From positions 4,960,001 to 5,024,000 of the forward strand of contig NZ_AP025739.1 in the NCBI RefSeq assembly GCF_003574315.2: a DNA stretch of 64,000 bases, written 5' to 3'. Below are positions 61,555-62,504 of the stretch, in pieces. The notes below the pieces were generated by a model. That model was not told the origin of the DNA, ran no database searches, and saw nothing but the letters and a program-made list of their open reading frames with translations. Made by a program: the position numbers and the translations under genes. Each line of letters begins with the position of its first letter. Position 1 is the first letter of the stretch. Source of the stretch: Capsulimonas corticalis (GTDB lineage: Bacteria > Armatimonadota > Armatimonadia > Armatimonadales > Capsulimonadaceae).

Positions 61555-61584
61555 TTGACTTGAGTGAAATCTACGGGCTATAAT
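61555..61584 (+). promoter_or_regulatory. Promoter of the short unit at 61.6 kb
   Basis: TTGACT (61555-61560), an 18-nt spacer and TATAAT (61579-61584). Transcription should start near 61591. Confidence 0.8.
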
Positions 61585-61625
61585 ATTAAAGGTCGAATAG
61601 TAATTTTTTTGGAGAGCATCAAGCA

Positions 61626-61805
61626 ATGAGAGACGTTTCTTCCGTCCTCGCCACAACTTTTGATAAGGATTGGGCCCTCGCCCGGCATCGCGCTTGGATT
61701 CAAGCGCGAGACCATGGGGATTGCTTGCGGCATCGGCATGCGCTCTACCACGTTCGCCTACACAGGCACGTGCACGTGCGTCGCCAACCAGTGTTTGAAT
61801 GCTGA
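61626..61805 (+). CDS. Possible 59-residue His/Arg-rich protein, or structured RNA
   Basis: ATG 61626 lies 9 nt behind GGAGAG, downstream of a good promoter and upstream of a terminator. The peptide starts MRDVSSVLATTFDKDWALAR and ends HVHVRRQPVFEC, with about ten His and ten Arg. Third-position GC is lower than in neighbours. In the +1 frame the composition is more typical of this genome and gives a Cys-rich stretch (TGTCTCVANQC), but no SD-backed start exists there. The RNA itself has a perfect 9-bp stem (61688-61696 with 61701-61709) and a 14-bp palindrome GCACGTGCACGTGC (61766-61779). Small protein, leader or regulatory RNA are all possible. Confidence 0.4.
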   Translation: MRDVSSVLATTFDKDWALARHRAWIQARDHGDCLRHRHALYHVRLHRHVHVRRQPVFEC

Positions 61806-61860
61806 CCCGCTTGACTGTCCCGCCTCCCGGCGGCTTAGTCGAAGCGGGTTTTTTGTTTTT
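61805..61860 (+). terminator. Terminator of the short unit
   Basis: ACCCGCTTGACT pairs with AGTCGAAGCGGGT (one bulge), with an inner CCGCC/GGCGG stem, followed by a T-rich run with TTTTTT. It ends about 80 nt before the HNH gene, so that gene is read through or has its own start site. Confidence 0.85.
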
Positions 61861-61940
61861 TTCGACCTTGCTTTATCTTGTGGATTTACGGCCCGGTAGA
61901 ACGGTGCGGGAAACGACGGAAAGGACTGGACTGTAGAGTT

Positions 61941-62504
61941 ATGAGCCATGAAGTTCTTGTACTGAACAGCGACTACGAACCGCTGAACGTTTGTAACATT
62001 CGGCGCGCGTTGCTGCTGCTTTATCTGGAGAAGGCGGATGTGCTGCACGTGCATGAAGGCGTGGATAGTCCGAAGTTGACCACCGGTCACGGCGTGTCGC
62101 TTCCGGCTCCGTCCGTCGTCCGTCTGCGCTACCATGTCAAGCGGCCGCTGCCCGAACTGAAGCTGTCCCGCCGGTCGATCTTCGCCCGGGACAACTACAC
62201 GTGCCAGTACTGCGGCGTTCAGTCCCGGGACCTCACGATCGACCACATCCTGCCCAAGCGTCACGGCGGCGGCATGCAGTGGGAGAACCTCGTGGCCTGC
62301 TGCCGGCGCTGCAATACGCGCAAAGCGGACAAACTCTTGCAGCATTCCGGAATGAAGCTGGCGCGCGCTCCGAAGCGTCCACGCTACGTCCCGTATATCA
62401 GCCTGACAAAGTACATCAACGGTACGAAAAACGATGTCTGGCGCGATTACCTGCCGATCTTCGGCGATGTCGGCGGCGCCAGCGCCTACGCCGCCACCGC
62501 GTAA
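61941..62504 (+). CDS. HNH endonuclease-domain protein
   Basis: 187 residues from ATG 61941. N-terminal EVLVLNSDYEPLNVCNIRRALLLL, then FARDNYTCQYCG, the HNH core LTIDHILPKRHGGGMQWENLVACCRRCNTRK with CxxC pairs. This is the small, stand-alone chromosomal HNH family found in many Gram-positives and relatives. Its role (DNA repair or defence) is not established. Confidence 0.88.
   Translation: MSHEVLVLNSDYEPLNVCNIRRALLLLYLEKADVLHVHEGVDSPKLTTGHGVSLPAPSVVRLRYHVKRPLPELKLSRRSIFARDNYTCQYCGVQSRDLTIDHILPKRHGGGMQWENLVACCRRCNTRKADKLLQHSGMKLARAPKRPRYVPYISLTKYINGTKNDVWRDYLPIFGDVGGASAYAATA

Follow-up and report, generated by a model that had tools for sequence, protein, structure and literature searches.

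A conserved leader-peptide unit upstream of HNH endonuclease genes in Armatimonadota is a probable transcription attenuator

A ribosome that has reached the final codons of an open reading frame (ORF), or its stop, would cover the 5' arm of an adjoining terminator, given the established size of its footprint. In msrDL, formation of a Rho-independent terminator is obstructed by a ribosome that has stalled at the leader's stop codon (PMC10314930), and the 24-residue TnaC peptide is arrested at its own stop codon, with Trp12 and Asp16 as key residues (PMC8429421). SpeFL, an ornithine-sensing leader peptide, has also been described (PMC8429421). Here, we analysed a 64,000-nucleotide stretch of the Capsulimonas corticalis genome (hereafter "the window"), in which positions 61555-61861 probably constitute a leader-peptide transcription attenuator of the HNH gene at 61941-62504. 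We are confident that this segment acts in cis as a leader for the HNH gene and encodes a translated peptide, and we lean towards a ribosome blocking the terminator as its mode of action.

The unit lies on the + strand and opens with a sigma-70-type promoter (TTGACT-N18-TATAAT, 61555-61584, 11 of 12 consensus matches), from which a short, terminated leader transcript is predicted to span 61591-61861, both ends being deduced from the positions of promoter and terminator. A Shine-Dalgarno-like GGAGAG (61611-61616) precedes a leader ORF of 59 codons (61626-61805) encoding MRDVSSVLATTFDKDWALARHRAWIQARDHGDCLRHRHALYHVRLHRHVHVRRQPVFEC and ending in a stop codon. The intrinsic terminator (61806-61861) consists of a stem (61806-61848, approximately -27 kcal/mol) and a T run after it, TTTTTTGTTTTTTT. 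Within the ORF lie a perfect 9-bp hairpin, TCGCGCTTG-GATT-CAAGCGCGA (61688-61709), which is possibly a pause hairpin, a perfect 14-bp palindrome (61766-61779), and a cluster of His codons, LHRHVHV (61758-61778), located 9-15 residues ahead of the stop and recurrent in relatives when these are compared from the stop codon. An earlier note, made from the sequence alone, had described the promoter, the Shine-Dalgarno sequence and ORF, the strong terminator and both repeats exactly as we find them, and had seen no known family in the peptide; likewise, the 59 amino acids yielded neither a profile nor a sequence match in Pfam, NCBIfam, PADLOC or PDB. By treating 61555-61861 as a complete stand-alone unit, however, the note overlooked its role as a leader to the downstream HNH gene. 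The unit is present as a single copy in the 7.65 Mb genome, and candidate paralogues in this genome or in phages were not convincing.

Upstream regions were read for approximately 80 loci encoding HNH homologues, nearly all of them from Armatimonadota, and the order of promoter, short ORF, terminator and HNH gene was found in most. Promoter, short ORF and intrinsic terminator are thus conserved jointly upstream of the gene that they would regulate. Near-consensus promoters (at least 10 of 12 matches) were detected between -450 and -200 in 46 of 79 loci, where shuffling predicts 1.1, and in none of the 79 within the last 110 nt before the HNH start, in scans covering sigma-70-like types; in about one third of the loci, the promoter or the terminator was not recognised by the scans used. 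Since the sole visible sigma-70-like promoter for the HNH gene sits before the terminator, this layout is that of an attenuator, and read-through would presumably be the only route by which the HNH gene is transcribed. The position between rqcH and an HNH gene, as noted earlier, holds across the phylum for the HNH neighbour but not for rqcH: a different gene lies upstream in the closest relative of the window genome, a Capsulimonas sp. metagenome-assembled genome of the same genus (locus L009), and a link to rqcH was discarded. At four plasmid-borne HNH relatives from other phyla (a cyanobacterium, an actinomycete, Persicobacter and Sinorhizobium), no leader unit was visible by eye, although four are too few to decide. 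Finally, one contig filed as a Methanoregulaceae archaeon (L080) carries a Fimbriimonadia-type HNH locus with 94% upstream identity to L073, and is probably mis-binned.

The position of the leader stop relative to the terminator is also conserved. In the window, the TGA stop codon directly abuts the stem, which begins at the very next base. Across relatives, 10 nt or less separate the stop from the stem, a spacing at which a ribosome on the stop would mask the terminator, in approximately 25 of 40 loci; among 50 terminator-bearing ordinary genes taken from the window and the relatives' contigs, this applies to 4 (p=4e-8). The former count is approximate because the ORFs listed for this comparison were those whose stop fell at most 30 nt ahead of the stem, a requirement that favours near-stem stops, and because the 25 were counted by hand. 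In nearly all the remaining loci of the 40 the ORF enters the stem, and in L003, L031 and L039 it enters or passes the terminator rather than ending there.

Substitution patterns indicate that the leader ORF is translated and that its peptide is under selection. The leaders of the window and of Capsulimonas sp. are 88% identical, and their ORFs differ by synonymous changes in 6 codons and non-synonymous changes in 6, against 10.5 expected (p=0.006), with four of the six non-synonymous changes confined to codons 51-54. The same residues are encoded by different codons in the two genomes, with CTACACAGG versus CTCCATCGG for LHR and GTTTCT versus GTGAGT for VS. Purifying selection is restricted to frame 0 in this pair, and likewise in four independent pairs of loci (L022/L027, p=0.004; L035/L054, p=0.003; L039/L043, p<0.001; L041/L042, p=0.002). 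Similarly, synonymous codon changes outnumber non-synonymous ones in the peptide cores of L067/L061 (10/0), L094/L087 (10/3) and L098/L046 (9/1), core segments that were chosen because the peptides looked alike. No significant codon signal was found in pairs L010/L011, L031/L034 and L048/L050.

Alignment of the leaders from 25 loci on their stop codon revealed an enrichment of His at positions -10 to -14 (38 of 125 residues, compared to 8% overall), along with acidic residues around -17 to -20 and basic residues at -21 to -27, a typical peptide core being SLRMLEDGLCVRQHLFH. When a 21-position profile of this peptide was searched in six frames against 151 whole genomes, the best 11 matches were all located just upstream of HNH genes, as were 16 of the 29 matches overall. 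Seven of these 16 correspond to loci outside the set from which the profile was built, and all seven include a promoter and a leader ORF. Leader peptides from Chthonomonadia-like loci are rich in His and Arg, whereas Fimbriimonadia leaders occupy the same place with other motifs and no His, namely WSTGSWFGTRGRYR in hot-spring lineages and PPxWxDTIIR elsewhere. This suggests either that divergence has made the peptide unrecognisable or that one gene is served by different leaders and, given such strong differences between classes, a single common signal is not proven. In the Fimbriimonadaceae, a DTIIR-like segment, in which GAC ACN and ATA codons are conserved, was observed in L055, L063, L064, L066, L078, L083 and L085, and could represent a peptide or a nucleotide motif. 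Hot-spring Fimbriimonadales (L058-L077, upstream of HNH) have leader ORFs that begin 4-9 nt past the -10 box, so that the mRNA is probably leaderless, and in most of them the leader frame stays open across the terminator and closes with a TGA that overlaps the start codon of HNH.

Among the four options that the earlier note had offered for the unit, namely a small basic protein, a leader, a structured RNA or two overlapping products, the linkage to HNH genes and the coding selection support the leader. A free-standing gene for a small basic protein, with its own promoter and terminator and a downstream HNH gene transcribed by leakage, would be in line with the selection on the ORF, the full set of gene signals, and a His-x-His pattern that could bind metal. 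We nevertheless consider it unlikely because the best genome-wide matches of the profile adjoin HNH genes, no promoter is seen for the HNH gene itself, and codons at the C-terminus vary freely, in contrast to the preserved spacing between His cluster and stop and between stop and terminator; the small protein is thus coding, as had been proposed, but fits solely in the role of a leader peptide linked to the HNH gene. The existence of two overlapping coding frames at 61626-61805 was suggested by the codon-position GC of the ORF (71/44/59%), whose arithmetic does yield a higher GC at third positions of the +1 frame. However, neither the +1 nor the +2 frame is under purifying selection in any pair with a frame-0 signal, and the probability of a second product is negligible. 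A structured RNA or riboswitch in which the ORF would be incidental might be expected from the folding of the transcript, which is better than that of shuffled sequences (z = -4.45, with a contribution from the terminator), and from a near-invariant mid-ORF stretch that includes the hairpin (about 61690-61765), with 1 substitution in 84 nt between the window and L009 compared to 14 in 96 elsewhere (p=0.0009). As this near-invariance extends to synonymous sites, it may reflect a genus-level constraint on an RNA hairpin. Yet no Rfam covariance model, including HEARO, matched even at E<=1, conservation operates at the codon level with substitutions tracking the frame-0 codon structure, and what is kept in relatives beyond the genus is reading frame 0 rather than the two repeats: the hairpin is identical in L009 but was not seen in L003, and the palindrome is already broken in L009. 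A structured RNA as the main product is hence highly improbable.

A classical trp-type attenuator, in which stalling at scarce His or Arg codons would free a segment of RNA to pair with the 5' arm of the terminator as an antiterminator, appears rather doubtful. The His/Arg-rich composition of leader peptides in Chthonomonadia-like loci would suit this explanation, as would the ability of TCAAGCG in the window (inside 61688-61709) to pair with CGCTTGA in the stem, and a CAGGCTCC/GGAGCCTG pairing that falls among the top 1-6% relative to shuffles in several hot-spring Fimbriimonadales. However, when duplex energies were compared to dinucleotide shuffles across 73 loci, the mean z was -0.37 and the pairing in the window was no better than shuffles (rank 0.75). 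An antiterminator helix exclusive with the terminator was weakly supported in a single related clade, within the Fimbriimonadales, and an RNA-only antiterminator switch was rejected. There is also no run of codons for a single residue across relatives, the His cluster being found in Chthonomonadia-like loci only, and since Fimbriimonadia leaders are not His-rich, His starvation is unlikely to be a general signal. Moreover, the order of the peptide is conserved and not its composition alone, and the His codons are located 30-42 nt ahead of the stem, beyond the coverage of a ribosome stalled there.

For the leader-peptide attenuator that we favour, RNA polymerase would start near 61591 and normally end at the terminator at 61806-61861, resulting in a short transcript, while the leader ORF would be translated up to its stop, directly against the terminator stem. 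A ribosome would come to a halt on or close to the end of this ORF, most likely because the nascent peptide in the exit tunnel responds to some signal, and the conserved His-rich segment, approximately 10-19 residues from the stop, would then lie in this tunnel. The halted ribosome would occupy the terminator's 5' arm and prevent hairpin formation, so that the HNH gene would be transcribed, i.e., arrest would turn the gene on. We infer ribosome arrest because of the conservation of residues at positions anchored on the stop. A broader scenario, which we put forward tentatively and consider somewhat less than an even bet, is that such leaders are nascent-chain sensors across the phylum Armatimonadota, turning on the HNH nuclease in response to ribosome arrest, whether caused by a small molecule or by translation stress. 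If true, this would make the HNH nuclease part of a ribosome-stress response.

The proposed regulated gene (61941-62504, + strand) encodes a 187-aa HNH endonuclease with PF14279 (HNH_5) and PF01844 domains. Its HNH domain matches models of IscB, Cas9d, retron HNH and PtuB below their respective cut-offs, and the protein is a stand-alone relative of such nuclease cores. To our knowledge, the PF14279-type stand-alone HNH family is widespread but has no known role. A conserved leader-peptide switch before such a gene would make its function testable, since it would indicate when the nuclease is wanted, namely while a certain nascent peptide keeps a ribosome in place. The literature searched held nothing relevant on HNH genes with a leader peptide or attenuation, so that the family described here most likely belongs to a known kind of regulator, the leader-peptide attenuator, that had not been described before a nuclease in this literature. 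As far as the same search shows, it would also be the first attenuator-type regulator described in the poorly studied phylum Armatimonadota. Ordinary gene callers may overlook leader ORFs of this type or enter them as hypothetical genes.

Several known leader systems resemble this locus in part. The predicted leader ORF uORFC-6-1, upstream of hflX, is likewise associated with attenuation before a ribosome-related gene, but belongs to Firmicutes and differs in both gene and sequence (PMC8632094). The hisL and trpL attenuators share with the window the combination of promoter, leader ORF, terminator and structural gene, whereas the window displays neither a supported antiterminator pairing nor a single-residue run, and its stop is adjacent to the terminator rather than placed between the first and second pairing regions. 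With SpeFL, the Armatimonadota leader would share a nascent chain that senses a metabolite and causes termination arrest, as proposed here. SpeFL is also rich in His and Arg. The streptococcal macrolide resistance leaders msrDL/mefAL similarly place a short translated ORF ahead of a Rho-independent terminator and the gene under its control; however, the macrolide-sensing MsrDL is only a hexapeptide (PMC10314930), while Armatimonadota leaders comprise approximately 45-65 residues, are rich in His and Arg towards the C-terminus, precede an HNH nuclease gene, and are predicted to undergo arrest. In TnaC of the tna operon, the key residues are located about 9-13 residues before the stop, at the tunnel constriction, and arrest at the stop codon leads to read-through (PMC8429421), yet TnaC senses tryptophan and governs Rho-dependent termination, as opposed to the intrinsic terminator of the Armatimonadota leader, and no sequence relationship between the two is shown. 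By analogy, the Armatimonadota leader may thus operate like msrDL and TnaC, with no kinship to either being implied.
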